DNA of 64,000 bases from Sphingomonas sp. Root710 (lineage in GTDB: Bacteria; Pseudomonadota; Alphaproteobacteria; Sphingomonadales; Sphingomonadaceae): the NCBI RefSeq assembly GCF_001429065.1, contig NZ_LMIB01000001.1, positions 691,933 through 755,932 on the forward strand, in the 5' to 3' direction. The translations under genes were made by a program, and so were the position numbers. The notes under the pieces are model-generated. The model saw only the letters and a list, made by a program, of their open reading frames with translations. It made no database searches and was not told the origin of the DNA. Positions 1,646 to 51,011 of this stretch are shown piece after piece. Within the stretch, counting starts at the first letter, position 1; each line of letters begins with the position of its first letter.

Positions 1646-1697
1646 TCCCCGCCTGATATACTGGCGGCGCCTGATTCTGGCACCGTAACTATTTCCT

Positions 1698-1722
1698 GGA
1701 CCCTAACGCGCCGTCGCACGTT
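1698..1722 (+). promoter_or_regulatory. Candidate EcfG-type general stress promoter upstream of bphO
   Basis: GGACC at 1698-1702 is followed after exactly 16 bases by CGTT at 1719-1722. The alphaproteobacterial general stress sigma factor EcfG recognises GGAAC-N16/17-CGTT, so this is a one-mismatch match on the strand that leads into bphO 65 bases downstream. A one-mismatch hit can arise by chance, so this is only a candidate. Confidence 0.3.
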
Positions 1723-1786
1723 TCGTTGCCTGAAAGGTTACGCAGATTTCGAACGGTCTGGGGGATTTTTGTCTGACGTCAACATC

Positions 1787-2329
1787 ATGCCATTGCGGGA
1801 CAGGCTCCGGCTTGAGACCGCCGACGCCCATGCGCGCGTCGACGCGCTGTTCGGTTCATGCGATTTCGCTGATGCGGAAGGTTACGGTCGCTTCCTGCTC
1901 GCCCAAGCGGCGGCCTGGGAGACGTTGAGGCCGATCCTCGACAGCGAATCGCTCGCGCGGGCGGAAGCGCTGCGGAGCGACCTTGAAACGCTGGGCCTGC
2001 CGGTTCCCGAACCTCTGTCCGATGTCGACGTACCGTCGCACGCGTCGCTCGGGCATCGTTATGTGCTTGAGGGGTCGCGGCTGGGATCGAGTGTCCTCCT
2101 GCGCGAGCTGAAGGCTAAAGCGCCAAACTATTCCGTAGCGGCAAGCGCATATCTCACTGAATCGGCGGTGATGGAGCCTTGGAAGCGATTGTTCACTACT
2201 CTACAGAATGATCATGGCGTCCATGCTAATGGTCGCGACATCATTGATGATGCTCTGTTCGTGTTTGGCCTTTTTGAAAAGGCCTGGCGGGCCACTTACA
2301 GCGCCTCCACGAGAACGAGCCGATTTTGA
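1787..2329 (+). CDS. bphO: Biliverdin-producing heme oxygenase
   Basis: The 180-residue product has the size and N-terminal signature of bacterial heme oxygenases: LRLETADAHARVD near residues 5-17, whose His is the expected proximal heme ligand. It should open heme to biliverdin, carbon monoxide and iron in the cytoplasm. The biliverdin would then serve the phytochrome encoded directly downstream, whose TTG start overlaps this stop codon, so the pair is probably translationally coupled. The frame extends far upstream, antisense to the PLD gene, and that part is rejected. ATG 1787 begins the conserved family sequence. An in-frame TTG at 1769, with a G-run just upstream, would add six residues and is a minor alternative. 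Confidence 0.88.
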   Translation: MPLRDRLRLETADAHARVDALFGSCDFADAEGYGRFLLAQAAAWETLRPILDSESLARAEALRSDLETLGLPVPEPLSDVDVPSHASLGHRYVLEGSRLGSSVLLRELKAKAPNYSVAASAYLTESAVMEPWKRLFTTLQNDHGVHANGRDIIDDALFVFGLFEKAWRATYSASTRTSRF

Positions 2330-4878: not shown

Positions 4879-6363
4879 TCAGCGCCTTCGGAAATCCTCG
4901 AGCAGCCGGCGAGCGTCTTCGGCGGGCGGCGCCTGCAGCTGATGTGCGTTGCCGTCCGTGCAGCCGCCGGGGCGGCGATAGAGGCATGCGCCGTCGTCGG
5001 CGCAGCTGATCTGCGCAAAGCCCCAGGATGCAAAGCGATCCGAGGTCTGCGCCGCCGTGAAGGAAAGGATATAGTTGAAGTCGGGCGCAGCCGCCGCAAC
5101 CGCGGCGTACAGCCGCATGTCGGGCCGTATCCGGACCATGCCGCTATGGGCCCACTGCTCGGGCCTGTCGATGCCGATGGCGCAGGCCCCGGGATCGGCG
5201 CTGGCCCGATCGAGCGCATGGATCGCACCCGCATCCTGCAGCCATAGCGGGCGCATCATGCCCCGCACCCCGCTGAGAAGGGACAAGGTGATCCATAGCA
5301 GGGCGCTTGCGACATAGAGCCGTCGGCGCGTGAAAGGACCGCCGAAACGATCGGCAGCGATCCGCGCCAGTTCTACCGTGCCGATGCCGCACACCGTGAA
5401 GAGCAGCGGGAGCGCCGGGAAGATGAAGCGCCATTCCTTGTGCGCGACTGCCGAAAATGTCGCGATGATGATCAGCGCGGCGGCGAGCGGCAGCGGCGCG
5501 CGGCGTGCGCCAAAGACGGCGGAGAGTATGATCGCTGGAAGCGCCACGCCCCAGATCATCGCCTCGTTGGCGACGTACCAGCCCGGCGGTGCTGTGCCGT
5601 AGAGATTGGCCATGCCGCCGCCGTTGATGCGGACATAGAGCAGTACCGAGTGGAAGGGTTCTCCCCAGGTCAGCCAGTCGGTTACGCCCAGCAAGGCGAT
5701 CGGCAGCAGCAGCCCGACCGCCATCGGCACCCAGCGGCGGTCGGGCAGCAGGCCGGCGACGGCTAGTCCCGCGACCACGCAGGCAGGGCCAAGCTGGGGG
5801 CGGACGATGATCGTCAGCCCGAGCATGATTCCGGCGAACAGGATTTCGCGGCGGGTCGATCGTCCCAGCCGGGCGCCAAAGGCGAGCGCCGCGATCAGGG
5901 TGATCGCCGAGATCGTGTCGGCCAGCATGTGCGGTGACAGCTGGACGATCTCCGCCCAACAGGCGGTGAGGAGGCCCGCGAACAGAGCATGAATGCGCCC
6001 GCCCTTAACCAGCCCGATCCGGTAGGCGGCGATCACCGCGCCGCTCGACAGGATCGCAAGGAAAGCGGCCACGACCGTTCGCAGCACGACCGGGTCGGGC
6101 GACAGCAGATGGCCGAGTGCGACGGCGGGAGTGATGATCCAGGGCAACAGCCAGGACCGCGCGCCGACCTGATATTCCCAGGGGATCAGTCCCTTGCCCG
6201 TGACCAGCCGATAGGCCTGTTCGAGATATTGAAAGGTCTCGTCAGGATGCGCGACATTGGGCAGCGCATAGCTCGTCGTGATCCGCGCCGCGGCCGCGCC
6301 GAGGCAGAGCAGGGCGATCGTCCGCCAATGGCCCCACAGGCGATCATCGGGCGCGGGGCTCAC
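4879..6363 (-). CDS. GT22 (ALG9/PIG-B-like) membrane mannosyltransferase-like protein
   Basis: This 494-residue polytopic protein begins with a membrane segment followed by NVAHPDETFQYLEQA near residues 36-50. That matches the HPDE-type catalytic loop of the GT22 family, whose eukaryotic members (ALG9, ALG12, PIG-B) transfer mannose from a polyprenyl-phosphate donor. Many further hydrophobic segments follow, and the C-terminal region is probably extracytoplasmic. It is the last gene of a five-gene cluster and starts with GTG 13 bases after the stop of a DPM1-like synthase that could make its lipid-linked sugar donor. The sugar and acceptor are unknown. Its stop codon abuts that of bphP. Confidence 0.72.
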   Translation of the reverse strand: MSPAPDDRLWGHWRTIALLCLGAAAARITTSYALPNVAHPDETFQYLEQAYRLVTGKGLIPWEYQVGARSWLLPWIITPAVALGHLLSPDPVVLRTVVAAFLAILSSGAVIAAYRIGLVKGGRIHALFAGLLTACWAEIVQLSPHMLADTISAITLIAALAFGARLGRSTRREILFAGIMLGLTIIVRPQLGPACVVAGLAVAGLLPDRRWVPMAVGLLLPIALLGVTDWLTWGEPFHSVLLYVRINGGGMANLYGTAPPGWYVANEAMIWGVALPAIILSAVFGARRAPLPLAAALIIIATFSAVAHKEWRFIFPALPLLFTVCGIGTVELARIAADRFGGPFTRRRLYVASALLWITLSLLSGVRGMMRPLWLQDAGAIHALDRASADPGACAIGIDRPEQWAHSGMVRIRPDMRLYAAVAAAAPDFNYILSFTAAQTSDRFASWGFAQISCADDGACLYRRPGGCTDGNAHQLQAPPAEDARRLLEDFRRR

Positions 6364-6375
6364 GTCAGGCGCGGA

Positions 6376-7527
6376 TCATTTGGCGGGAGCGAAGATGCGC
6401 TTGCGCGGCCGCCGCCAGACCAGGCTGGTCGCTGCGGAGAAGTTGAACACCGCGCCCATGATCGCGCCGAACAGGCCCGCGATCGACCAGTTGTCGACCT
6501 GTTTGATCGCGATTTCGGCCACGCCGACATTGGCGAGCGCGCCGAAGCTGCAGACCAGGCAGAACAGGATCAGGCCCGCGACGAAGGACAGCCCGGTCAG
6601 CCGCCGGTCGCGATAGGTGAACTCGTTGTTCATGATGAAGTTCGACACCATCGACACCCCGATCGCGGCGATCTGCGCGCCGAGGAACTCGAAACCGAAC
6701 AGCTTCAGGCTGTTGAGCACGGCGAGGTGGACGCCAAGACCGATGCCGCCGACGATGCTGAACAGCGCGAAGCGGGGCGGGATCAGGCCGTGGGTCAGCT
6801 TCTCGATGATCAGGAACAGGAATTCGGCCAGCACCATGATGCTGATCTTGCTTTCGCCCGCCTGGCGGGTGCGAAAGACATAGGGGACTTCCTCGATCTT
6901 CAGCGGCACATGCGAACTGCTGATGATGTCGAGCAGGATCTTGTAGCCCTGCTGCGACAAGTCGTAGATTTCGCTGGCGAAAATCTCGCGGCGGACCATG
7001 AAGAAGCCGCTCATCGGATCGGTGGTCTGGTTGCCGACCAGCATGCACGCCATGCGGGTGGCGAAATCGCTCATCCGCGCACGGGTCGCATCCCACTCGC
7101 CGATACCGCCGCCTTCGGCGTAGCGGGTGCCGACGACGATGTCGGCATCAGTCGCCATCATCTTTTCGAACATCGGGCGCAGGATGCGCTCGTCATGCTG
7201 GAAGTCGGCGTCCATCACCGCGATCACCGCGCCGTTGGCGACCAGCGCGCCCTCGATCACCGCCGAGGCTAGGCCGCGACGGCCGACACGGCGCAGGCAG
7301 CGCAGCCGCGGCTCCTGCCGCGCCAGATTCGAGACTTCGCTGAAGGTCTGGTCGGGGCTGTCGTCGTCGACGACGATCATTTCCCAGGGAATGTCGCCCA
7401 GAGCGGCGCTGACCGCGTCGACCAGCGGGGCGATGTTGCTGCGTTCGTTGTAGGTCGGGATGACGATCGAGATATCGGGGGCGGTGAGCCGTTCCTTCGG
7501 CGTCTTTCGGCCTGCGATCAAACTCAT
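6376..7527 (-). CDS. DPM1-like GT2 glycosyltransferase fused to a GtrA membrane domain
   Basis: The 383-residue protein has an N-terminal GT2 catalytic domain (ISIVIPTYNER near 20-30, VVDDDSPD near 56-63, the metal-binding VMDADFQHD) typical of dolichyl/polyprenyl-phosphate mannose synthases. From about residue 255 it continues into a four-helix GtrA-like domain (FSIVGGIGLGVHL, NFIMNNEFTY). The enzyme likely charges undecaprenyl phosphate with a hexose on the inner face of the membrane, and the GtrA part may help move the product across. It sits between a polytopic membrane protein and a GT22-like enzyme that would use such a donor. The GT2-GtrA fusion is well known in bacteria. Donor sugar is not predictable. 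Confidence 0.86.
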   Translation of the reverse strand: MSLIAGRKTPKERLTAPDISIVIPTYNERSNIAPLVDAVSAALGDIPWEMIVVDDDSPDQTFSEVSNLARQEPRLRCLRRVGRRGLASAVIEGALVANGAVIAVMDADFQHDERILRPMFEKMMATDADIVVGTRYAEGGGIGEWDATRARMSDFATRMACMLVGNQTTDPMSGFFMVRREIFASEIYDLSQQGYKILLDIISSSHVPLKIEEVPYVFRTRQAGESKISIMVLAEFLFLIIEKLTHGLIPPRFALFSIVGGIGLGVHLAVLNSLKLFGFEFLGAQIAAIGVSMVSNFIMNNEFTYRDRRLTGLSFVAGLILFCLVCSFGALANVGVAEIAIKQVDNWSIAGLFGAIMGAVFNFSAATSLVWRRPRKRIFAPAK

Positions 7528-33718: not shown

Positions 33719-36700
33719 TTATCTCCGCGCAGGGACCCAGTCGGCGAAGGTGGGACGGTCGTTGACCTTCCACACCTCGCCCTTCGAGTTAAGGAACAGC
33801 CGCTCCATCTCGCTGCGCTTGAACGGGCGCGACCCGATTCGGCCGAAGATCGCGATCTGGTTACCGCTTTCGTCGACGCCACGGTCACGATCGAGGCCCT
33901 TCGACAACGCCAGCGCAGGCGAGGGGGTTTTCGCCCAGGCAATCAACTCGGGCATCGGCGCGGGTGAGAAGCCGTAGAAATTGGGCTGGCTCGCGGGCGA
34001 GGTCAGCTGGATCACCTTCAGGCCGTTGCGGCCGTCGGCGACATAAGCGAACAGCGACGCGTTGGTGGTTCCGACGATCACGTCCTCGGCATCGTTCAAC
34101 TTATCGTCGAAGGTGACCTTCTGGTACAGCACCGGCTTCAGCGGGCGGGTGATGTTGACGATCATCAGGCCGTCCTGCTTCGCCGCGACATAGGCATAGG
34201 TGCGGGCGAGGTAGATGCGCTGGGCGTTGGCGATCGGCAGCGTCGCCTGGGGCACCAGCACCGGCTTGTCGAGATGCGTTACGTCGACGAGCTGTAGGCC
34301 CTCGGCGGTGGTCACCCACAGATAGCGGAACTGAAGCGCCGAGGCGCGGGCGTCGCGCAGCGGAACCGTGGCCGCCAGGCGTGGCTGCTTGGGGTTGGTC
34401 AGATCGACGACGACGAGGCCCACATCGGCGGTGATATAGGCATAGTTTCCGCCCAGCGTGATGTGCCGCGCACCGGCGAGAATGTTGTTCTCGTTCCAGG
34501 TGACGGTGCGCTTGAGGAAGTTGTTGCGCGGTTCGCCATCGGCCAGCGTCTCGACATTGACGACGATCAGACCTTCCTCCGAGTCGGTGATGAAGGCGTA
34601 GCGATAAATCTCGCCCATCTTCTGCTCTTCGTTCTCGGGATAATATTTCAGGATGTGATCGTTGCGCTCTGTCGAGATCGACTGGCCGGTCGGTAGCGCC
34701 ATGCAGGTCGCATTCTTGCTCTCGACGCGCGTGTCGTGGCCCAGCGGCGAGAAGGGCGCGGTCAGGATGCGCTGCGACGTGCCCTTGTTGGCGATCGACG
34801 CGACGTCATAGACTTCGAAGCCGGCCTTGCCCTGGGCGACATACATATATTCGCCGCGCAGCTGGAGGCAGCGCGCCGCACCGCCGGTCGGGTGATGGGT
34901 GTTCGCAAACTCCTCGACCGAATGCGGCTCGCCCGAGAGTTTCGGCCCGAAGCGCTTGCCGCGCACCCATTCGATCAGCTCGCGGCCATGCTCCAGATGC
35001 GCCCTGAAATAGTCGGGATAGGCATATTTCTGCAGATAGGACCCGATCACGGCCTGAGGCTCGTCCCATTCGGTGACGCGGATCGCCTCGATGCCTTTCT
35101 CAAGGCCGGTCCAGGCATTCATGCCGACGAAGTTGACGAAATTGGTGCCGAGCAGGTTGAGCTGCGCCATGATCGCGTTGTTGTCGTCTTGATCCGACAG
35201 GTGGCAATCGGTGCACTTCTTCGTTTCGGTCTTGCGGACCGTATGCGGGAAGTGCGGCGCGAAGGCCTGGCTCGAAAAGCCGGCCGACGAGATCGGCGGC
35301 TGCTGGATGTAGATCCGCTCGCGGTTCAGGTTGGTCGAGGACAGCACCAGCGCCGATGTCGAACGGATCGGGGCGATGATATTGCCCTTGGTCGTCTGAT
35401 GGATGCCGAGCTGGTACATCTCGTCGCGCGCGACCTGCGGGTTGTAGGTCGCGAAGTTGCGCGTCTCGATGCCGTCATATTTGTGGCTGCTGGTCTTCCA
35501 GTTCGCTTCGATCGGGAGGTGACAGCCACCGCACGACGTCGTCCAGGACAGGTGGCAGGTGAAACAGGCCATCTTGTCGGTGTCGTGGGCGCGATCGCTC
35601 TTGGCGACGCCAGGGCCCCATTCATATCTGCCCGTCTCTTTGCCGACCTTGCCCATCAGCTTCGATCGCGCGGCGAGCGGGTTGAAATAGGCGCTGTCGC
35701 GGTCGACGGCTTCCCTGACCAGGCTGACCTTCCATTCGAGCTTGGGGTCGACGATCGAGCGCTGGATCAGCACGCGTTCGCCCTTGGCATCGGTGGTCCA
35801 TTCGAAGCGGCGCTTGCCGTCCTGGTTGCGGAGCAGCGATAGATCGTTTCCATTTGGCGGCGCTGCCGGGCCCGAGGTGCGCAGCGTGGGGAATTCGTCG
35901 GCGGTGCCGTGGCAATCCTTGCAGCCGATCTCCACCGCGTTGGCGACCTCACCGTAGATCAGGCCGTTGCCATGGCTGTCCTGCCCGAAATGGCAGTCTG
36001 CGCATTGCAGGCCCTTTTCGGCGTGGATGTCCATCATGTGGACAGCCTTGCCCTTCTGCTCGCCGATCTCGGCGAACATGCCGACGCCGTTCTTGCGGAA
36101 CTTCTCAGGATCGTCGGGCGAGACGATGTTGCCGTTCGCGTCGAGCAAATTGCCCTCGCGATCGCGCTTGTAGATGGCGCGGAAGTTCCAGCCATGGCCA
36201 TGATAGTCGGCGAACTGGGTGTCCTTCGCCTTCGGGTTCACATCGTCGGCGACGTTGCGCAGGAAGTCGATGTCACTCCACTTGCCGATCGCGGCGGCTG
36301 CTTCCGGATTGCGCTCGTTGACCGCGCGGCGTTCGGCGATCGTCGGATATTTCTGCTTCTCGGGCCACATCAGCGGCGCGTCGGACTCATAGTCCCACAT
36401 CGTGTAGCCGAGATAGCTATTCAGGAAGATGTTGGGCTGGTGCATGTGGCAGTTCATGCACTGCGCGGTCGGGATCGCCTTGGTGAAGGCGTGCTGGATC
36501 GGGTGACCTTTTTCCTTCTGCGCGCCGATCGGATGCTGGGGCACGCCCTCCGCGCCATGCGCCGCCTTGTCGACGCCATGGCCATCATGATCGGGCGAGG
36601 GCGGGCCGTGGTCCTCAGCCGCCTTGCCATGGCCGCCGCCATGACCGCCATGGCCATCGTCCTTGGGTTCGAGCTTGTCCTTGATCGTCGGATCGACCGT

Positions 36701-37819
36701 CGCGGTCTGTCCGTCGCGGCCATATTTAGCGTATATCAGGCTGTGCTTGGGCTCGCGATCGTTCGCATAGACGACGTGGCAACCGGCGCAGCCCGAATTG
36801 CGATAGTCGCCGGGCTGGTCGTTGGTGCCCATGAACCACATGAACGGATCGTTGAGGCGCGTCTTGTGGATGTTGAGCACGGGGATAGCGACGCGCAGGC
36901 CGGTGGCCGGGCCGCGGTTCGACTGCTTGAGGTCGGGCCGGCCCGGTTCCTCGAGGCGCTGGATGCTGCCGAGCGAGTTGGGCAGGCCGATTTCGGCGAA
37001 GGTGCTGTTGATGTTGCGGCCGCCGCGCTCGAATACGCGGAAGATGTCGCCCGGCGGGATGACGTGCCAAGTGGGCAGCGGATACATGACCGGCAGCGCG
37101 CCGCGCGCCTTCTGCTCCGGGGTCACCGTCCCTGGCGTAACGCCCGGCGACTTGATCTGCGCGGGCTCGCCATGGGCGGTATAGGCCTCGCCGAACAGAT
37201 AATTCTTATAGGGAACGATGCCGTTATTATAGGCGCCGCCGCCCCACAGCATCGCGCCGGTGGCCATCAGCGACCGCTCGGCCGCTTGGATGATGTCGAT
37301 ATGGCAGGAGCCGCAGGCCTGGCGCGCGACGCGATAGTCCGACGGATTGACGAAGCGGATATATTCGGGCGCTTCCTTGTTGAGCAGGGTATAGCTGCGC
37401 TTCGGGTTGGCCGAAGACGGCCAATGCCAGGCCTGCGGATATTTGGGCAGGACATGCGCCTTGTCGCGCGCAGCGACATAGGCCCGATCGGTCATCTTGA
37501 GATGGCTGTCGACTTTGACGGTCGCGTCGCCGCCATGGCAGTCGACGCAGCCGAGCACGACCGCTTCGGTTTGGTGCATCGTCTTGCGATCGGTCGCGGT
37601 GTGGCAGGAGACGCATCCCGCACTCTTGGCATCGCCCTCGGCCCAATCCTGGGTGCGCGGCGCATCGGCGAACTTCGGGTAGGTGCGGGCGACGGGTTTC
37701 TCGCCCTCGGAGGCGGGGGCGGGGGTAGGGGCGGAGACGATGATGGTGACCGCGCCCGCCAGCACCAGCGCGCCGCGGACCGCCCATCGCATCGTCATCA
37801 GTGAACCCAGAGCCCGCAT
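33719..37819 (-). CDS. Ten-heme cytochrome c with His-rich linker and LVIVD-repeat propeller
   Basis: This 1366-residue exported protein has a signal segment (residues 11-37) and ten CXXCH heme sites starting near 69, 91, 169, 344, 454, 606, 633, 752, 763 and 869. A His/Gly/Asp-rich stretch (about 388-421) between hemes four and five could bind metal. From about residue 985 come at least six LVIVD-type repeats (VYDVASI, IVVNVETL, LVVVDLTNPKQPRL, LQLVDVTHLDKP, LMIVNITRPLKP, LKVIQLTSP), predicting a beta-propeller. No lipobox is present, so it is periplasmic or passes through the barrel encoded just upstream. The gene closes a four-gene operon. The fusion of a multiheme domain to this propeller is uncommon. 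Electron transfer is the expected role; its partner is unknown. Confidence 0.88.
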   Translation of the reverse strand: MRALGSLMTMRWAVRGALVLAGAVTIIVSAPTPAPASEGEKPVARTYPKFADAPRTQDWAEGDAKSAGCVSCHTATDRKTMHQTEAVVLGCVDCHGGDATVKVDSHLKMTDRAYVAARDKAHVLPKYPQAWHWPSSANPKRSYTLLNKEAPEYIRFVNPSDYRVARQACGSCHIDIIQAAERSLMATGAMLWGGGAYNNGIVPYKNYLFGEAYTAHGEPAQIKSPGVTPGTVTPEQKARGALPVMYPLPTWHVIPPGDIFRVFERGGRNINSTFAEIGLPNSLGSIQRLEEPGRPDLKQSNRGPATGLRVAIPVLNIHKTRLNDPFMWFMGTNDQPGDYRNSGCAGCHVVYANDREPKHSLIYAKYGRDGQTATVDPTIKDKLEPKDDGHGGHGGGHGKAAEDHGPPSPDHDGHGVDKAAHGAEGVPQHPIGAQKEKGHPIQHAFTKAIPTAQCMNCHMHQPNIFLNSYLGYTMWDYESDAPLMWPEKQKYPTIAERRAVNERNPEAAAAIGKWSDIDFLRNVADDVNPKAKDTQFADYHGHGWNFRAIYKRDREGNLLDANGNIVSPDDPEKFRKNGVGMFAEIGEQKGKAVHMMDIHAEKGLQCADCHFGQDSHGNGLIYGEVANAVEIGCKDCHGTADEFPTLRTSGPAAPPNGNDLSLLRNQDGKRRFEWTTDAKGERVLIQRSIVDPKLEWKVSLVREAVDRDSAYFNPLAARSKLMGKVGKETGRYEWGPGVAKSDRAHDTDKMACFTCHLSWTTSCGGCHLPIEANWKTSSHKYDGIETRNFATYNPQVARDEMYQLGIHQTTKGNIIAPIRSTSALVLSSTNLNRERIYIQQPPISSAGFSSQAFAPHFPHTVRKTETKKCTDCHLSDQDDNNAIMAQLNLLGTNFVNFVGMNAWTGLEKGIEAIRVTEWDEPQAVIGSYLQKYAYPDYFRAHLEHGRELIEWVRGKRFGPKLSGEPHSVEEFANTHHPTGGAARCLQLRGEYMYVAQGKAGFEVYDVASIANKGTSQRILTAPFSPLGHDTRVESKNATCMALPTGQSISTERNDHILKYYPENEEQKMGEIYRYAFITDSEEGLIVVNVETLADGEPRNNFLKRTVTWNENNILAGARHITLGGNYAYITADVGLVVVDLTNPKQPRLAATVPLRDARASALQFRYLWVTTAEGLQLVDVTHLDKPVLVPQATLPIANAQRIYLARTYAYVAAKQDGLMIVNITRPLKPVLYQKVTFDDKLNDAEDVIVGTTNASLFAYVADGRNGLKVIQLTSPASQPNFYGFSPAPMPELIAWAKTPSPALALSKGLDRDRGVDESGNQIAIFGRIGSRPFKRSEMERLFLNSKGEVWKVNDRPTFADWVPARR

Positions 37820-37827
37820 TTACGTCC

Positions 37828-39759
37828 TCAGAAAGACAGGATCGCGTTGAACAGCACCGAATAATATCGGTCGTCGCCGCGCGAGTTGGTGAAAAGATCG
37901 GAGAAACCCTTGCCCGGATCGAACACGGCACCCGACAGGCGGAACACGGCGTTCTGCACCATGCTCGGCCGCCAGATCAGCGCGCCCGACAAGTCCCAGC
38001 CGATCGACTTCGGAATGCTGCCCTCGTTGCGCAGCTCGCGCAGCGTGGCGGTATTCTCGAACCAGAGATGGTTGAGATTGGTCGAGAAGCGCAGCTGCGG
38101 CAGGATGTCGAAATCCGCGCCGACGCCGAGCAGCATCGTGCCAGGGTTGTTGAAGTTGGACTGCCCCTCTTCCTTCGACGTGCGCAGGTCATTCAATATG
38201 CCGTTACGCGGCGCGATCGCGACGTTGACGCCGCCGCCCGCGAAGGGGACCGCCTGGCGGATCCAGTAGCTCGTGTCCGCGCCCGCGAAGATCGGATTCT
38301 CGAAGATCGCCGAGAAGCCGGTTTCCTTGTTGTCCTTCGGCTTGCCGTCGCCGGTGGCGTAGAGGCCCGAGAGTTTCACGCGGATCCAGTCGAGGTCGTA
38401 GCTCAGTTCGCTGGCGGCAAAGAAGGCCTGGATGCGCGCCTTCTTCGAGGTGAAGAAGCTGTTCCGGTCCTGGCCGAATGCGGCGTAGAAGGTCGTCGAG
38501 GTGTTGAAGCGTTTGACGCGGCCGTCGAGACTGTAGCCGACATAGAAGACGTCATATTCGCGCGGCCGCTGATCGCCGAGCAGCGCGGGGCGCACCGGGA
38601 AGCCGTTATGATCGAGCGTCCGGTCCTTTTCGCGGTTGATGTTCGCGGTGGCGGAGACCAGCGAGGTCAGGCCCGCCAGCGGAAAATCCTGCATGAACAG
38701 GTTCGCGGCGAGGATATAATCGTCGCGCGGCTTGCGGGTGATGTCGTTCAGGCCGCTGTTGGTGTCCTTTTCGAGACGCCAGATGCCCTGGACGTTGAAC
38801 TGGTAGCGGTTGTTGTCGCGATTGCCGAAGAAGCGGACGCCGAGCTGGTTGTCCTGAAACAGAAAGCCGCGGAAATCGAACTGGAATGGCTGGATGCCGA
38901 TGCGCAACGAGTCGAAGTCGAAGCGGTCCGAGCGGTTGCCGAGATGCTTGTCGACGAACAGTTCCTGCAAGCCGAGGAATTTGTCGGTGCGGTGCGTGGG
39001 GCGCGAGGATTCGACGTGCAGGACGCGGCGTTCCTGCACGTTCACATAATTGACCTGATAGGCGACCGCGATGCGGTATTCGACATCCGGCGGCTTATAG
39101 GCGGTCGAACCCTTGCTCAGGCCCGCGCCGAGGATGAAGGTCTGTGCGGCGACCAGGCTGCGGTCACGGCCGAACTGGCCGATCGCGCCGGGTTTCGTGC
39201 TGGTCTGGTCGGCGACGGGAGTCGGGAAGGAGCGGGGCTCGAGGACCGAATCCGAGATCGCGTTCAGGCCGAAGAACCAGTCGTCCCCGGTGATCGGCAG
39301 GAAGAAGGGCTTCTTGTCGATCTGGATCGGGACGTCCGCCTTGAGCGGATTCTGGTGATAGGGATCGAGCTTCGAATGGCAGACCGCCTGAAGGCCCGTG
39401 AAATTCTTGTCGGGGCACAACGCCTTGACCAGGCGCCAGCGGTCCGGGATCGGAAACTGATCGGTCGGAAATGCCTCGGGCGGCGGCGCGCTCACTGCAC
39501 CGGCATTGTGTTGGCTGACGGGCGCCGGGAGTTCGGTGACGTAACCCGGTCGCCGACGGCCGTCGATCATCGGATCGTCGACGGTGGAGGCTGGAGCATT
39601 GGCCGGAACGGCGAGCAGACTCGGGTCGCCTAGTGGCGCGGGCTGTGCCGGTGCTTCGGACGCGGTTTGAACGGGCGCCGCCGCCGGCTCATCCGACGCG
39701 CCGCCGGTCGATGCCAGCGCGACGGCTTGCAGCAGCAGGGATGAGAGCGCCGCCGACAT
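37828..39759 (-). CDS. Outer-membrane beta-barrel protein of the multiheme operon
   Basis: The 643-residue protein has a signal segment at its N-terminus and a Pro/Ala-rich linker to about residue 100. After that it has strands typical of a large barrel: alternating aromatic and small residues, and asymmetric turns rich in Asp/Asn. It ends in YYSVLFNAILSF, with a C-terminal Phe as needed for outer-membrane assembly. It has no CXXCH. By position between a lipoprotein and a ten-heme cytochrome it may be the barrel through which electrons pass, as MtrB does for MtrA. I do not recognise a named family. Its ATG overlaps the upstream stop by one base. Confidence 0.75.
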   Translation of the reverse strand: MSAALSSLLLQAVALASTGGASDEPAAAPVQTASEAPAQPAPLGDPSLLAVPANAPASTVDDPMIDGRRRPGYVTELPAPVSQHNAGAVSAPPPEAFPTDQFPIPDRWRLVKALCPDKNFTGLQAVCHSKLDPYHQNPLKADVPIQIDKKPFFLPITGDDWFFGLNAISDSVLEPRSFPTPVADQTSTKPGAIGQFGRDRSLVAAQTFILGAGLSKGSTAYKPPDVEYRIAVAYQVNYVNVQERRVLHVESSRPTHRTDKFLGLQELFVDKHLGNRSDRFDFDSLRIGIQPFQFDFRGFLFQDNQLGVRFFGNRDNNRYQFNVQGIWRLEKDTNSGLNDITRKPRDDYILAANLFMQDFPLAGLTSLVSATANINREKDRTLDHNGFPVRPALLGDQRPREYDVFYVGYSLDGRVKRFNTSTTFYAAFGQDRNSFFTSKKARIQAFFAASELSYDLDWIRVKLSGLYATGDGKPKDNKETGFSAIFENPIFAGADTSYWIRQAVPFAGGGVNVAIAPRNGILNDLRTSKEEGQSNFNNPGTMLLGVGADFDILPQLRFSTNLNHLWFENTATLRELRNEGSIPKSIGWDLSGALIWRPSMVQNAVFRLSGAVFDPGKGFSDLFTNSRGDDRYYSVLFNAILSF

Positions 39760-41750
39760 TATTTACCGTCGCACACGACTTGTTCGGAGGTGTCGAGAAA
39801 CGGTGCGAACGGACAGTTGACGTAGCGCAGCCTGACCCCCGAGCCCACGTCCACGACGATCGTGTCCGCGCGGATACCAGTGGGGGCATTCCCTATGCCG
39901 CCGACGCGCAGGCCGGCGTTATGCGTACCCAGGAACGAAATCATATCGTCCTGATCGATACCGTCACCTGACACGCCAAGGCCGCCGATCAACGTGTTGC
40001 CGCGGTATATCGGCACCGACCCCGGGAAAATCTGGATGCCATTTTGCAGGCGATTCTGCGCCTTGCCCGCGACATCGGGTGCAAAGGTGCAGCGTTGCCG
40101 GGTGTCAGAAGCGGATGCGCCGAGGACGAATCCGAGATGTTCCGCGAGGTTGGTCAGAATAAGTGCGCTCTGGAGGCCGGTGGAGAAGGGGCTCCATTGA
40201 TTGAAAGGGCGCGACAGAGGGCCGTTAGGCCGCCCTTCTTCCCCATCGGGGAAGAAGGGACGCGACAGGTTGCCGCCCGAGCGGTCGGCAAACGCAATCT
40301 TTCCGGTCAGCGCGGTCTGGTCGTTCAGGAACGTGCGAACTTTTCCGACGAAGGATTGCACATCAGGCGATGGATTGCCGAGCAGATCCCCAGCGGCGTG
40401 GGCGCCGGAGAAGAATGTCGCAGTCCGTGCCTTTTGAATGGAAACGTCACTTCCGAAGATCGGTCCATCCGGCGAGCGATCCTGGCCCAGGATCGAGCCA
40501 TGAGTGTCGACCACGGTCATTGTGACCTGCGCCGGGCTATCCAAGGGTTTGCGTATCTGGGCGCGGGCGCGGCTCATGACCTTGAAAGCTTCTTCCAGCA
40601 AAGCCTTCACTTCGGCGGCGGTGAGCGGAGATGCGACGTCCGCGCCGTCGGTTCCTGCCCTTATCGGATAACGAGGGTTGCCTGAGCCATCGGTGAAGAT
40701 GAAAGCGTCGACATTGTCGATCACCGTGCCCGCTGCGCGTTCCGCCGCTGTCGCCTTGCGAATGCCGGAGGCCTCGGTGCCATAAGCGGTGCCGGCGAGA
40801 ATCGATGGCGTGGAACCTTCGGCATAATATCCGCGGATCGAAATCAGCGAACCAGCGGTGCCGTTCAGCGCCGAGAATGCTCGGGCGCTCGTCGGCGTGG
40901 ACCTCAGATCTCCGGATTGCACATCACTGTAGCGAAGTTGAACCACCGCCTGAATATTGTTGGCGCGTATGGCTTCCGGCGCTTCGAAGCCGGTTATGCC
41001 GGCCGTCGCGATGATTTCATCATCATCCTTGTCGAAATCGTCGACGTTCGCATCGAAACTATAGAGGCCGTCCGACATCACGCCGATACCGCCGACAACC
41101 ACGCCGTTCTTATAGATGGGAAAGCCGCCGGGATCAGCCGCCAGGCCAAGGGGCGAACGCTTCGGCCCGATGAAGGCGGCAGGCCCGCCCCCCACGAGAT
41201 AGCGGCGGTTGAAATCCGAGCAGGGAAGCTGACTGAACTGCACCCCGAAAAGCGGGCCAGCGGCCAGCATATTGTTGCCGGGAGGATAATGCTCCTGAAC
41301 GATGAAGCTGGCGGTTCGGGTGGAGAAAGCATTTCCGCCTGAAGAGAGATATGCGCCGGTTATCGCCTTTGCGATTGCGGCAGCCGCCACTGCTCCCGGC
41401 GCGACAAGCCCTTCGACGTCTGTCGGCGTTACCGCTCGATTGGTGGTCTTGATCGTGAGTGTGCCCGGCGCGCCGTTCATCTGGAAAACGGCCAGGACGT
41501 TGCCCACCCGATCCGTGATGGCGATAGTGGCGGGCTTGTTGCGCGCGCTCGCTTCCTCAACCGCCTGGGCAAGGATCTTTTCGACATCCGGTACGGTCAG
41601 CGCCTCTTGGGCAGGGACCGCATAGACCGGCGTTTGCGAAGGCGTGGTCGGGGTGGTCGGAGTCGACGAACTGCCGCCGCCTCCGCCGCAGGATGCGAGC
41701 AGAAAGGCGGTGGTGGTCAATACAGCTACGGCACGCGAAAACAATGTCAT
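39759..41750 (-). CDS. Lipoprotein with two GlcG/HbpS-like domains
   Basis: The 663-residue protein has a lipobox LLASC with the acylated Cys21, followed by a Gly/Ser/Thr/Pro linker. Two copies of a GlcG/HbpS (DUF336) fold come next. The first begins LTVPDVEKILAQAVEEA and reaches GGIGVMSDG near 230; the second begins LTAAEVKALLEEAF and reaches GGLGVSGDG near 610. HbpS proteins bind heme on the surface of actinobacteria, so a heme or iron role at the outer membrane is plausible. A very acidic run (DANVDDFDKDDDE) may bind calcium. The gene is translationally coupled to its neighbours: ATGA with the five-heme cytochrome and a one-base overlap with the barrel gene. Confidence 0.78.
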   Translation of the reverse strand: MTLFSRAVAVLTTTAFLLASCGGGGGSSSTPTTPTTPSQTPVYAVPAQEALTVPDVEKILAQAVEEASARNKPATIAITDRVGNVLAVFQMNGAPGTLTIKTTNRAVTPTDVEGLVAPGAVAAAAIAKAITGAYLSSGGNAFSTRTASFIVQEHYPPGNNMLAAGPLFGVQFSQLPCSDFNRRYLVGGGPAAFIGPKRSPLGLAADPGGFPIYKNGVVVGGIGVMSDGLYSFDANVDDFDKDDDEIIATAGITGFEAPEAIRANNIQAVVQLRYSDVQSGDLRSTPTSARAFSALNGTAGSLISIRGYYAEGSTPSILAGTAYGTEASGIRKATAAERAAGTVIDNVDAFIFTDGSGNPRYPIRAGTDGADVASPLTAAEVKALLEEAFKVMSRARAQIRKPLDSPAQVTMTVVDTHGSILGQDRSPDGPIFGSDVSIQKARTATFFSGAHAAGDLLGNPSPDVQSFVGKVRTFLNDQTALTGKIAFADRSGGNLSRPFFPDGEEGRPNGPLSRPFNQWSPFSTGLQSALILTNLAEHLGFVLGASASDTRQRCTFAPDVAGKAQNRLQNGIQIFPGSVPIYRGNTLIGGLGVSGDGIDQDDMISFLGTHNAGLRVGGIGNAPTGIRADTIVVDVGSGVRLRYVNCPFAPFLDTSEQVVCDGK

Positions 41751-43150
41751 TTGAGGGCCCTTATCGACGCCGCTGCCTGACCCAGCGCCGCCCGGAATTC
41801 TGCTGGACGATAGGCATTGCTGTTGCCGACCGCCTTATAGGCCCGATCGATCGCGCCCCGGGCTCCGCGCGCCCGTTCCTCGCTGACATGGCCCTGGCGG
41901 ACCAGCGCGTTGAGCAGCGTGTCGATCGCCATCACCGCCTGCGCCGAGCCTTCATAATCGGTGAAGCGCGCGGCGATAGCGCTGCTGGAAATGCTGTCGA
42001 TGATCGCGAAGGTTTCGGCGCGGCCGAGGGCGGTGCGGCCCATCGTGTCGGCGAGCACGCCCGCCGAAGCGCCGAGCTTGCGGGCGGCAGCCACCGCCGA
42101 GGGACGATCCTTCGCCAGCGCGGCGTGGAAGGCACGCGAATCGGCGTCGAACTTCGCCGCCGCGCCCGGCGCGGCGACCTTCGCCGCCGCCGAGAGCATG
42201 ATCATATTCTCATCGTTGAAGGCGGGCATGCCCGACGGGATGGGGCGGCCCGGATTGGCGAGCCAGTTCGCCCGGCCGTTGGGGCCATCGACGATCTGGC
42301 GATGGCAGGTGTGGCAATCGAAGAAATAAATCTCCGGGAAGATGCCGTCGGTGCCCAGGCGCGGGTTGGCGAACAGCGCGGTGGCGCGGCCCACCGCGCT
42401 CGCCTGGCCGACCGCCCAGAGCTGGACGTTGTTGGTGTGGCGCTTGCGTTGCGCATAGTCGGTATCTTCGTCATGATGCTGCTGGAGCGCGGAGAAGAGG
42501 TCGACCTCGAAAGCGACACGCGGATGGCCGGCGGCCATGATGCGGTGCGAGACGAACTGGCCGGGCTTGTCGCTGCCGAAGTGGCAGTCGAGACATTTCT
42601 CGGCGCGGGCGCGGGGCTGATCGAGCGGATAGAGGCCGCGCGCTACATTGGCGGCATGGGTCTGGCCGACGGCATAATGGCTGGTCAGCCATTGCTGCGC
42701 GCCGCCATGGCAGGCCTCGCAGCCGACGCCGTCCTCGACATGCCAGCGCGGGCCTTTGCCGGCATAGGCCGGATCGGCGTGGCAGCCGAGGCACTCGCCC
42801 GCTGAGGTCGCCGGGCCGATGCCGAGCTTTGCGGCGATCGCCTGGCCGCGCGGTGAGGCGAGCACGGCGAAGGCGCGGCTGTGCGCGCCGGTGCGGCTCG
42901 ACGCGTTCTGCCACTGCAGGATTTCGTCCTGGCGAACGACCTTGCCGGTCGGCTCGCTGCGGCCATGGCAGGTCGAGCCCGAACAGGACGCGACGCCGAC
43001 ATGGCTGAACGAGGAGGCAGGGGAGGCCGACGAAGCGACCGCCCGGTCGGCGGCGCTGGTCAGGGCGAAGAAAAAGATGGCGCAGCCGAGGAGCGCGACG
43101 CCCAATGCGCCGCACATAAAGGACAGCCTGCCCGAGACTCTACCCCCCAA
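41747..43150 (-). CDS. Five-heme cytochrome c (c554-like)
   Basis: This 467-residue protein has an N-terminal hydrophobic helix (residues 10-31) that could be a signal or membrane anchor. It has five heme motifs: an unusual C-X4-C-H (Cys56-Cys61-His62) and CXXCH at 120, 144, 186 and 279. The arrangement recalls the cytochrome c554 family. About 185 residues after the last heme form a soluble Ala-rich helical region with no recognised fold. TTG 43150 has AGGGAG seven bases upstream. ATG 43117 would give a shorter protein. As first gene it likely passes electrons from the inner membrane to the other parts, which is inference. Confidence 0.85.
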   Translation of the reverse strand: MGGRVSGRLSFMCGALGVALLGCAIFFFALTSAADRAVASSASPASSFSHVGVASCSGSTCHGRSEPTGKVVRQDEILQWQNASSRTGAHSRAFAVLASPRGQAIAAKLGIGPATSAGECLGCHADPAYAGKGPRWHVEDGVGCEACHGGAQQWLTSHYAVGQTHAANVARGLYPLDQPRARAEKCLDCHFGSDKPGQFVSHRIMAAGHPRVAFEVDLFSALQQHHDEDTDYAQRKRHTNNVQLWAVGQASAVGRATALFANPRLGTDGIFPEIYFFDCHTCHRQIVDGPNGRANWLANPGRPIPSGMPAFNDENMIMLSAAAKVAAPGAAAKFDADSRAFHAALAKDRPSAVAAARKLGASAGVLADTMGRTALGRAETFAIIDSISSSAIAARFTDYEGSAQAVMAIDTLLNALVRQGHVSEERARGARGAIDRAYKAVGNSNAYRPAEFRAALGQAAASIRALK

Positions 43151-48229: not shown

Positions 48230-48982
48230 TCAGCCCTTCGGAGAACCATCGGGCAGCGCGACCGTCTGGATCAGCAGGTCGAGCTGCGCATTGCAGCCGG
48301 CCTTGATCAGCGATTGCGCCATGTCCTCGAGCCCGGCCGTGGTCGGTTTCACGACGATGAACTTCAGCGAGGTCGGGGCCTTGGCGCCTTCCCAGCTTAG
48401 CTTATAGGCGCCGCCGTCGACGACCGGCACGCTCGAAGGCCATAGCGCCGCCGACTGGCCGGCGGGCAGGTCGATCGTGCCCTGGCCGCTGGGGCCGGTG
48501 ACCGTCACGGTCGCGGCCTTGTCGGCGCTCGGACGCCACACGGTCACGGTCGAGGTATCGGCGATGCACATGTTCGAGCTGCGGCCGATGTCGACATACC
48601 AGACGTTCGGGTTCTTGCCGGCGTTCTTGTCGATGCCGCTGGCGCTGCGGACGGCCCCGATGCGGGCGCGTCGCTCGCCGCCGCCCGATACCAGCGCATT
48701 GAGCGTCGATCCGGTCGACGCCGCTGCGGTCGCGGTGGCGGTCGCGCTGAACGTGCCCGGGCCGCTCAGCGTGCGGGTGCCCTTGCCGTCGAGCAGGACG
48801 ATCGTGTCGCCGGCTTTCAGGACGATCTTGGCCGTGTCGGGGATCGCCTTGCCGGCGGGATAGGTCTTGGCCGACGGACCGGCCGATCGGACGACCAGCG
48901 GCGCGGCCATAGCCGTGCCTGCGAGCATCAATCCTGCGAGTGTCGCAACAGCCTGCGACGAGCGCTTATTTATCCAGAGCAC
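48230..48982 (-). CDS. Exported protein coupled to a CHASE2 cyclase (FecR-like?)
   Basis: This 250-residue protein has a signal segment (AVATLAGLMLAGTAMA, near 11-27). The mature part has an opening strand set (APLVVRSAGPSAKTYPAGKA, KAGDTIVLLDGKGTRTLSG) resembling FecR-type beta domains, and a C-terminal helical end with two cysteines in the region. I am unsure of the family. GTG 48982 has GGGAGG five bases upstream, a strong site. The start lies inside the cyclase gene (17-base overlap), so the two are translationally coupled. It may modulate the periplasmic sensor domain of that cyclase, which is inference. Confidence 0.62.
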   Translation of the reverse strand: MLWINKRSSQAVATLAGLMLAGTAMAAPLVVRSAGPSAKTYPAGKAIPDTAKIVLKAGDTIVLLDGKGTRTLSGPGTFSATATATAAASTGSTLNALVSGGGERRARIGAVRSASGIDKNAGKNPNVWYVDIGRSSNMCIADTSTVTVWRPSADKAATVTVTGPSGQGTIDLPAGQSAALWPSSVPVVDGGAYKLSWEGAKAPTSLKFIVVKPTTAGLEDMAQSLIKAGCNAQLDLLIQTVALPDGSPKG

Positions 48983-51011
48983 TATAACCTCCCGGTCCAA
49001 CCTCATGAAGGCGCTTTATCAGATTGGCGAGCGCCTTATCATCAGGATTCTTTGCGGCCATTTGTTCGAACTCGGCCAGAGCAGTGGTATCTCCATCATC
49101 GAATCTACGCAGCGTGTCTGTGAACTGTTGCACAGCCGTAGCAGAAAAATCGGGGACGGGTTCGTAGATGATCATCGGGGTCGATCGGCCCGACACCGCG
49201 ATGCGGCCCATAGGGCGGAAATAGCCCAGGGTCGACTTCTCGACGACGGTGTCGCTGACCAGCGTTTTGGTCTTCAGATATTTGTTCGCGCCTTCGAGCC
49301 GCGCGGCAGTGTTCATCGAGTCGCCCAGTGCGGTGTACTGGATGCGGCCTTCGCCGCCGAAATTGCCGACGATAGCCTCACCCCGGTGACAACCGACCCG
49401 TGTGACGCCGATCGGCGGCACGCCCTCGGGTGCCTCGCGCCGGAATTGCTCACCGGCTTCATACATCGCGATCGCGCATTTGACGGCGCGGTCGGCATCA
49501 TCGGGCCGGCTGATCGGAGCGCCCCAGAAGGCGACGATGGCATCCCCGACGAACTTGTCGAGCGTGCCACCGTGCGCGAGCACGGTTTCCGATAGCAGGT
49601 CGAGATAGCGGTTGAGCAGGAGAGCCACCATTTCCGGCTCGATCTGGTGGCTGAGCTTGGTGAAACCCTCCAGATCGCTGAACACGGCGATGATGTCGCG
49701 CTTCTCGCCGTGCAGCTGGAGCCGCTCGGGATTCTTCATGATGTCCTTGGCGATGTCACCGGGCAGATATTTGCCGAGCGCGCCCTGTGCGAAATTGCGC
49801 TGTTCGGCGCCGATTCCACGCGCGGCGGTGCCGACGGCGGTATAGGCGAAGATCCAGCCGATCACCCAGCCGAACACCGGCAAACCCTGCGTATCGACAC
49901 CGTTGAACTGCCAGATGAACGGCACCGCGACGACCGCGCCCGCCTGAACGAGCAGGATCAGGCTGAGCTTCCAGATCTTCAGGTTCGACATCGCGGTGAG
50001 CGAACCGAGCAGGACGACGCCGATCGCGATCAGCCAGAGGCCCCAGCCGGGAATCTTCTTGTACATGAAATGATCGAGCATCTGCGCGAGCAGGGTCGCG
50101 TGGATCTCCAGCCCGATCGTCGTCTCGCCGACGCGGCCCGTGACCGGATCCTTCATCCGCGAAGCGGGGGTCTGGAATTGGTCGACGTCGGGGATGTTGC
50201 CGCCGATCAGGACGTACCGGCCCTCGATCTGCGGCTTCAATGCCTCGACCAGATCGGGATTGGCGATCAGCTCGACGGGCAGCTTGTCGAAGACCGGCCG
50301 CTCGTAATTGACCGGCAGGCGATAGCGGATCGATCCCTGATGATCGCGATATTCGGGAAAGCCCTGCGTCAGCGAATTGGCCATCAGCGGGGGCAGGTCG
50401 CGAAGCTGTTCGGGCCAGCTGCGCATTACGTCGTCGCGGTCGGCCTCCACCCGGATGCTGGTGAAATGGACATTGCCGGGCGCGGTCTGCTTCTGGAAAT
50501 CACGCAGGAACTGTTCCTGATCATAGGTCATGAAGGCCGGGTTCGACTTGTTCGTCGCCAAACCGAGATAGGTCGGCGTCTTCATGCCCCGGAAGGCGTC
50601 GATCAGCTGCTGGTCCTCGGGGGTGGGCTGGTCGATCAGAATATCGATGCCGATCGCTTTCGGCTTCATCTTGTCGAGCTGGGTCAGCGCTTTGCCGAGC
50701 ATCGCGCGGTCGAGCGGCGAGCGCCGCCCGGTGAGTCGCAGCGTCTCCTCGTTGAACGTGACCATCACGATGCGCGGGTCGGTTTCGACATGCTTGGCGG
50801 ACAGCAGCGCGCGCACGTCGTACAGAGCGCGCTCTGCGTCCTGGGCGAGCATGATGTTCCAGCTGAACTTGGCGAAGAGCAGGCCGAGTGCGAGGAAAAT
50901 CGCGGTCACCACCAGCCGGGTGGGACCGATCTGCTTTAAAGTCTTGCGAACGACAGGGCCGATCCCCTGCAGGCGCGTCATGATCGACGCGCGTTCGACG
51001 CTGTCCGGCAT
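48966..51011 (-). CDS. CHASE2-domain adenylate/guanylate cyclase
   Basis: The 681-residue protein has an N-terminal membrane helix (near 31-50) and an extracytoplasmic CHASE2 sensor domain (RALYDVRALL, VMVTFNEETL, AIGIDILIDQPTPED, GRYVLIGG). Three further membrane helices follow at about 335-405, then a class III cyclase domain from about 430 (VFSDLEGFTKLS, TLDKFVGDAIVAFWGAP, YTALGDSMNTAARLEG). The metal-binding Asp and catalytic Asn/Arg are present, so it is probably active. The ligand is unknown. It diverges from rmuC and is coupled to the small exported protein downstream. Confidence 0.93.
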   Translation of the reverse strand: MPDSVERASIMTRLQGIGPVVRKTLKQIGPTRLVVTAIFLALGLLFAKFSWNIMLAQDAERALYDVRALLSAKHVETDPRIVMVTFNEETLRLTGRRSPLDRAMLGKALTQLDKMKPKAIGIDILIDQPTPEDQQLIDAFRGMKTPTYLGLATNKSNPAFMTYDQEQFLRDFQKQTAPGNVHFTSIRVEADRDDVMRSWPEQLRDLPPLMANSLTQGFPEYRDHQGSIRYRLPVNYERPVFDKLPVELIANPDLVEALKPQIEGRYVLIGGNIPDVDQFQTPASRMKDPVTGRVGETTIGLEIHATLLAQMLDHFMYKKIPGWGLWLIAIGVVLLGSLTAMSNLKIWKLSLILLVQAGAVVAVPFIWQFNGVDTQGLPVFGWVIGWIFAYTAVGTAARGIGAEQRNFAQGALGKYLPGDIAKDIMKNPERLQLHGEKRDIIAVFSDLEGFTKLSHQIEPEMVALLLNRYLDLLSETVLAHGGTLDKFVGDAIVAFWGAPISRPDDADRAVKCAIAMYEAGEQFRREAPEGVPPIGVTRVGCHRGEAIVGNFGGEGRIQYTALGDSMNTAARLEGANKYLKTKTLVSDTVVEKSTLGYFRPMGRIAVSGRSTPMIIYEPVPDFSATAVQQFTDTLRRFDDGDTTALAEFEQMAAKNPDDKALANLIKRLHEVGPGGYSALDK

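Follow-up and report, generated by a model that had tools for sequence, protein, structure and literature searches.

The 64,000-nucleotide stretch of Sphingomonas sp. Root710 DNA analyzed here (the window; contig NZ_LMIB01000001.1, positions 691,933 to 755,932) carries on its reverse strand a gene whose product joins a ten-heme cytochrome to an LVIVD-type propeller. A preliminary description had noticed this fusion, with ten CXXCH motifs at residues 69-873, at least six LVIVD-type repeats, and a His-rich stretch between hemes four and five that might bind metal. It overlooked the operon to which the gene belongs and a second module elsewhere in the genome, which together tell most about function. 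The protein and its parts are located as follows.

33719..37819, reverse strand: decaheme-LVIVD propeller protein of 1366 aa, with an ATG start, a Sec-type hydrophobic N-terminus and no lipobox
35201..37615, reverse strand: heme-binding region with ten CXXCH motifs, residues 69-873, from a motif scan and conservation among relatives
36512..36679, reverse strand: His-rich variable linker, residues 381-436 (about), non-conserved, with 8 His, between hemes 4 and 5
33893..35125, reverse strand: predicted seven-bladed C-terminal propeller, residues about 899-1309, from an AlphaFold2 (AF2) model of homologue L077, fold alignment and residue mapping

The CXXCH motifs lie at residues 69, 91, 169, 344, 454, 606, 633, 752, 763 and 869, and the count of ten is borne out by a control in which 2000 shuffles of the sequence gave no motif in 1978 cases and one in the other 22. 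All ten are retained in 118 of 119 distinct full-length relatives (collapsed from 138 aligned rows), the sole exception being L120, a fragment truncated by the end of its locus. Across the same relatives, 13 His outside the CXXCH motifs (residues 82, 122, 439, 443, 460, 540, 542, 594, 599, 616, 745, 856 and 859) are invariant wherever a row covers them, as are the His of the motifs themselves, and these 13 are candidates for the ten distal heme ligands. Of 135 rows, 134 have a hydrophobic N-terminal stretch ahead of heme 1 and just 6 have a lipobox-like string (stop-to-stop frames, rows partly redundant). Searches of the PDB with the protein and with its profile, and of PHROGs with the protein, returned no match. 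On the forward strand, a 631-aa open frame (35909-37804) lies antisense, opposite the heme part; it seems to be a side effect of high-G+C coding and was excluded from the genes.

The fusion itself is real. Both parts belong to a single open reading frame of 1366 aa, and the C-terminal part is a member of the Pfam LVIVD family (PF08309; 3.4e-21, 74.8 bits against a curated cut-off of 20.2). Pfam counts four significant stretches; six signatures of the G-L-x-V-x-D/N-V type stand at residues 1000, 1083, 1134, 1174, 1217 and 1266 (shuffled mean 0.02), so that the earlier estimate of at least six repeats was fair. The propeller is predicted to be a closed seven-bladed ring. The AF2 model covers a 1198-aa stretch of homologue L077, which has a short linker, and was built from an alignment of 69 of the 80 prepared rows; it stops 54 residues before the protein's C-terminal end. 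Block means of the predicted local distance difference test (pLDDT) are 90-96 over model residues 991-1130 and 51-96 around them. The propeller of the model aligns with 6-phosphogluconolactonase 6nau (Z 29.4, root-mean-square deviation (rmsd) 2.6, 294 residues aligned), 1ri6 (Z 29.3, rmsd 2.7, 294 aligned), the YVTN propeller 1l0q (Z 28.7, rmsd 2.3, 275 aligned) and the designed seven-bladed protein 7bid (Z 28.2, rmsd 2.2, 267 aligned). Because the aligned span, from model residues 784-787 to 1195-1196, maps to residues about 899-1309 of the window protein, the propeller begins soon after heme ten. Cys984, Cys1039 and His1119, each invariant in 119 of 119 distinct relatives, occupy equivalent spots of three inner strands (RC-LQL, TC-MAL and RH-ITL) in the model and could form a disulphide or a metal site.

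The His-rich stretch between hemes four and five is present as described, and its suggested role in metal binding is not supported as a core feature. Among the 119 distinct relatives its length varies from 2 to 68 aa, it is cut to 2-5 aa in 16, and it has no His at all in 17. With His lost here and 13 His invariant elsewhere, the sequences point to a dispensable linker, and a metal site at this position was rejected as a core feature.

The decaheme-propeller gene is preceded by three genes on the same strand.

41747..43150, reverse strand: cytochrome c554-like protein of 467 aa, from Pfam and the CXXCH count
39759..41750, reverse strand: lipoprotein with HbpS-like (PF03928) domains, Pfam 1.5e-22 in 3 stretches
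37828..39759, reverse strand: outer-membrane barrel, AlgE/Occ-like, predicted to have 18 strands, from AF2 and fold alignment

Read 5' to 3', the order is c554-like cytochrome, HbpS-like lipoprotein, AlgE-like barrel and, last, the decaheme-propeller gene. In the window the genes overlap by 1 and 4 bases or, between barrel and decaheme gene, leave a gap of 8 bp, and this spacing suggests a single transcription unit. Of 68 relatives' loci that include 6 kb of sequence upstream, 67 retain the order; in the remaining one, L033, neither c554 nor HbpS was found in that position. Near-duplicate loci were dropped by eye (11 of 80 from set A1 and 3 of 73 from set A2). The c554-like protein has four CXXCH and one CX4CH in 69 of 69 relatives and belongs to the Cytochrome c554 family (PF13435; 32.8 bits against a cut-off of 20.8); it falls outside the Nitrosomonas cytochrome c554 equivalog NF043010 (22.5 of 400 bits). 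The lipobox Cys21 of the HbpS-like lipoprotein is kept in at least 90% of 69 relatives. For the barrel, an AF2 model of residues 61-643 (mean pLDDT 67, strand blocks mostly 70-89) shows 18 strands and aligns with AlgE (5d5d; Z 25.3, rmsd 2.9, 356 aligned) and with Occ porins (Z 20-23). Pfam Alginate_exp (PF13372) gives weak matches in 8 of 70 barrel members (best 6.4e-4, E up to 1) and none in the window copy, and a PDB search with the barrel's sequence profile found no match.

Upstream of the c554 operon, 13 loci bear a very large glycine-rich protein of the two-partner-secretion type, or a piece of one. In L150 (Sphingobium herbicidovorans; 390-6668) it is 2092 aa long, with an FhaC/ShlB-type secretion gene directly upstream; the protein or a relative's piece is also found in L016-L020, L024, L026, L030, L032, L039, L044, L048 and L050. 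No match to the L150 protein was found in the window, and this protein was not accepted as part of the system.

A second module lies 276 kb from the outer operon in the window's own genome. It comprises an SpdA-like phosphodiesterase (4.3e-43, below the model cut-off), a cytochrome of 607 aa with an FHA domain, a transmembrane segment and 10 CXXCH (FHA-decaheme), a cytochrome b of 292 aa, an 838-aa protein and a CcmH/NrfG-type TPR protein. In the cytochrome b, the pairs His99/His113 and His270/His284 are kept in at least 95% of 75 rows, and the members of each pair are 14 residues apart, the spacing of di-heme cytochromes b. The 838-aa protein combines a flavin adenine dinucleotide (FAD) part, a region binding cyclic nucleoside monophosphate (cNMP) and four cysteine clusters (cNMP-FAD-FeS); its FAD part is closest to YpdA and thioredoxin reductase, with scores below their cut-offs, and its L150 homologue has two cNMP-binding domains in Pfam.

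In some relatives the two modules are adjacent. On plasmid pMSHV of Sphingobium herbicidovorans the genes downstream of the operon encode a phosphoesterase, an FHA-decaheme cytochrome, a b-type cytochrome, a fusion of cNMP, FAD and 4Fe-4S domains and a TPR protein. Of 68 loci that include 7.5 kb of downstream sequence, 41 have this FHA-decaheme cytochrome there. The genes from cNMP-FAD-FeS through decaheme-propeller form a single row on one strand in L189 of the family and in L176, L177, L179 and L180 of a second class of the phylum; L178 has the same row minus the cNMP-FAD-FeS gene. In L181 (9089-16884) the second module stands beside two c554-like genes without adjoining outer barrel genes, an arrangement which hints that the inner module can also work with different outer partners. 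In four genomes of genus g21 (G106:C8, G167:C7, G214:C10 and G286:C8), some 12-15 kb separate the FHA-decaheme gene from photosynthetic reaction-centre genes.

The two modules also occur together across genomes. The decaheme-propeller protein was found in 119 of 298 Sphingomonadaceae genomes (about two in five; 42 of 96 genera) and the FHA-decaheme protein in 118 (41 of 96 genera): 118 genomes have both, one has the propeller protein only, none has the second module only and 179 have neither. In the second class (274 genomes), 20 matched the decaheme-propeller query, eight of them partially (the heme or propeller stretch or, in G930, the C-terminal tail only, 59 residues at 53%) and not scored as carriers; 11 genomes have both, one the first only, three the second only and 259 neither. 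Among the 30 best-scoring of the 119 family carriers, the modules lie within 25 kb of each other in 21 and farther apart in 9, which include all seven from the window's genus; thus, the co-occurrence is not mere adjacency. A phylum-wide draw found the protein in 11 of 398 genomes, 8 of these in Sphingomonadaceae. Photosynthetic reaction-centre genes (PF00124), taken as a contrast to the co-occurrence of the two modules, show a far looser association: 30 of the 119 carriers have them, against 24 of the 179 non-carriers (odds ratio 2.2, nominal p 0.014). A system restricted to phototrophs was rejected because just 30 of the 119 have them. The decaheme-propeller gene is also borne by 13 Sphingobium and Sphingopyxis plasmid records (H1-H13); the two plasmids examined, those of L150 and L151, were both typed conjugative, and the system may therefore be mobile.

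A link to cyclic nucleotides is suggested by a cyclase gene farther upstream in the window, listed here with a companion gene.

48966..51011, reverse strand: nucleotide cyclase of class III with a CHASE2 domain (Pfam CHASE2 2.7e-30, Guanylate_cyc 2e-14)
48230..49006, reverse strand: protein of 258 aa with a signal-like N-terminus, traveling with the cyclase (between cyclase and c554 in 17 relatives' loci)

A homologue of this cyclase precedes c554 in 19 of 65 loci of relatives, and in the second class a cyclase also stands beside the second module, of the CHASE2 type in L178 and plain in L182. The 258-aa protein had no match in a Pfam scan. Because a cyclase, a phosphodiesterase and cNMP-binding domains accompany the modules, the chain is probably gated by a cyclic nucleotide, with the CHASE2 cyclase as a possible source of the regulatory cNMP.

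Taken together, these genes suggest, with a probability of roughly 0.6, that the decaheme-propeller protein forms the outermost redox part of a trans-envelope system for electron transfer encoded by eight genes, placed at the outer-membrane end, fed by NAD(P)H and probably gated by cNMP. From the observed genes, motifs, gene order and co-occurrence, and from the model-predicted propeller and barrel, we infer the cofactor content, each electron-transfer step and its direction, the location of the propeller, the gating and the acceptor, as follows. Electrons from NAD(P)H would enter at the cytoplasmic protein with two cNMP-binding domains, through its FAD and its four [4Fe-4S] clusters, and pass to the two b hemes of the membrane cytochrome, and from these to the ten c hemes of an inner-membrane protein whose FHA domain would face the cytoplasm. 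The pentaheme c554-like protein would act as a shuttle from this FHA-decaheme cytochrome to the ten-heme domain at the outer membrane, beside the AlgE-like barrel and the HbpS-like lipoprotein. The propeller would be the end that meets a partner or substrate, at the surface or at the mouth of the barrel, and flow would probably be outward, to an external or periplasmic acceptor. The CHASE2 cyclase would supply the gating cNMP, and the SpdA-like phosphodiesterase would remove it.

Several observations weigh against this proposal. The AF2 model gives no heme geometry: block-mean pLDDT is 22-55 across most of the heme part and reaches 55-83 only at model residues 521-630 and in a few of the first 60 residues. 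A wire through the barrel is doubtful, since its predicted 18 strands make it narrower than MtrB, a barrel of 26 strands, and the decaheme-propeller protein has no lipobox, so that its surface exposure is only putative. In 46 of the 65 loci no cyclase was found upstream; 29 of these 46 carry inserted genes there, including an aldehyde dehydrogenase gene, as the window does; in four aldehyde-dehydrogenase loci viewed further out, the cyclase and its 258-aa companion lie beyond in L184, L185 and L187, and in L186 no cyclase was found within the examined stretch. FNR/FixK or NnrR boxes were found in none of 47 rows upstream of the second module, 87 upstream of c554 and 141 upstream of the decaheme gene (duplicates included), which gives no indication of oxygen-limited respiration; a RegA-like string occurs in 6 of 141 rows upstream of the decaheme gene (shuffled 1.25) and in 1 of 87 upstream of c554 (shuffled 0.7). 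Co-occurrence is also imperfect. The propeller protein stands without the second module in G022 of the family (67% complete) and in G894 of the second class (88% complete). Conversely, G702, G762 and G880 have the second module without the propeller protein: the G880 contig terminates within the barrel gene, next to its second module the 8-kb contig of G702 has a cyclase but no outer module, and in G762 two c554-like genes are present with no HbpS, barrel or decaheme-propeller gene adjoining the second module. The carriers are related, so the p-values of co-occurrence overstate independence and the Fisher value is not to be taken as a probability.

The same genes could instead serve a periplasmic terminal reductase, in which a small oxidant such as selenite or tellurite would enter through the AlgE-like barrel and be reduced at the decaheme-propeller protein for detoxification or redox balance. 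This reading is less likely, though a serious rival. It would suit the narrow barrel, the missing FNR box and the distantly ExtM-like heme scaffold, and in the parts consulted of PMC5877670 the Geobacter barrel ExtI plays a part in reducing selenite and tellurite and not Fe(III) citrate. The match to ExtM, however, scores just 66.8 against a cut-off of 800. A tellurite reductase that is constitutive, NADH-dependent and associated with the membrane occurs in the sphingomonad Erythromonas ursincola, without assigned genes as far as the consulted parts of PMC5488091 describe it; the subunits of the purified reductase, of 62 and 55 kDa, with GroEL as the nearest mass-spectrometry match, do not point to the operon (PMC5488091). 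A bolder reading appears unlikely: a new respiratory-style system in which a cNMP-gated, NAD(P)H-driven chain would reach from cytoplasm to outer membrane and end in a terminal reductase with its active site in the propeller (Cys984, Cys1039 and His1119), and which may be the missing membrane-bound NADH-dependent tellurite or oxyanion reductase of aerobic sphingomonads.

Electron uptake, in which the propeller would oxidize an external donor (Fe(II), Mn(II), or phenolic or humic matter) and pass electrons inward to NAD(P)+, is improbable. The same components could operate in reverse, and the carriers are mainly sphingomonads, mostly aerobic heterotrophs that encounter reduced aromatics. However, the flavin domain is nearest to YpdA and thioredoxin reductase (below cut-offs), both NADPH-oxidizing enzymes, and none of the proteins scanned matched a known family of Fe(II) or Mn(II) oxidases. 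Least probable is the capture of haem or a corrinoid at the surface by the HbpS-like lipoprotein and a BtuG-like propeller, with the cytochromes for reductive release: HbpS-like domains are present and cobalamin-binding surface propellers of Bacteroides are among the fold matches (8bn0, 8okv and 8bai, Z 25), but a Z of 25 is ordinary propeller similarity, under the lactonases at 29, and no TonB-dependent receptor was found among the neighboring genes scanned, a search narrower than the whole genome.

Most known trans-envelope multiheme chains come from metal-reducing bacteria. An NAD(P)H-fed chain of the kind proposed here, in 42 of 96 sampled Sphingomonadaceae genera, would if true give aerobes a switchable electron outlet. 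It would also offer a defined candidate gene set for the membrane-bound NADH-dependent tellurite reductase that stands without assigned genes in an aerobic sphingomonad, in the parts of the report consulted (PMC5488091).

Compared with known systems, the heme part is a distant relative of ExtM (NF040943), which the window protein matches at 1.2e-18, or 66.8 bits, and L144 at 1.2e-70, likewise below the 800-bit cut-off; both fall outside the family. Given these matches, the heme part appears to be a distantly ExtM-like scaffold, and the propeller its distinguishing part. Four ExtM-like proteins of another class of the phylum (L144, L145, L146 and L149; open frames of 783-829 aa) align Cys and His with each of the window protein's ten heme motifs and are likely sisters of its heme part, although they lack the propeller and have an eleventh CXXCH. 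The propeller itself shares repeat family and fold with LVIVD/YVTN-type seven-bladed propellers such as 1l0q; unlike these, it is fused to ten hemes and has the invariant Cys/Cys/His on three inner strands.

Among whole systems, one close counterpart is the Geobacter extHIJKLMNOPQS selenite/tellurite cluster, described in the consulted parts of PMC5877670 and PMC6148476 as encoding large multiheme c cytochromes, a barrel, a periplasmic pentaheme cytochrome, an inner-membrane cytochrome b and an Fe-S protein, all of which have parallels here. Where that cluster has a rhodanese lipoprotein and a Rieske protein, this one has an HbpS lipoprotein, FHA-decaheme and cNMP-FAD-FeS proteins; no propeller is mentioned there, and the term LVIVD occurs 0 times in PMC5877670 and in PMC6148476. 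Shewanella MtrCAB shares the concept of pairing an outer-membrane barrel with a decaheme cytochrome. It differs in a barrel of 26 rather than a predicted 18 strands, in its MtrC/OmcA-type lipoprotein cytochrome and in its input through CymA instead of an NAD(P)H-type entry. The window protein is not of the MtrC/OmcA type, with a Pfam Mtrc-MtrF match of only E 0.71 (9.8 of 30 bits) and the rarity of lipobox-like strings noted above.

No description of the system was found among the listed titles and opening lines of abstracts of the open-access literature searched, a scope outside which subscription journals and preprints fall. In the wide sense of a porin-cytochrome conduit, a barrel gene adjoins multiheme cytochrome genes in 67 of 68 loci. 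The system would work like porin-cytochrome conduits while standing outside Mtr and ExtM membership, built of individually familiar parts in a combination that is apparently undescribed.

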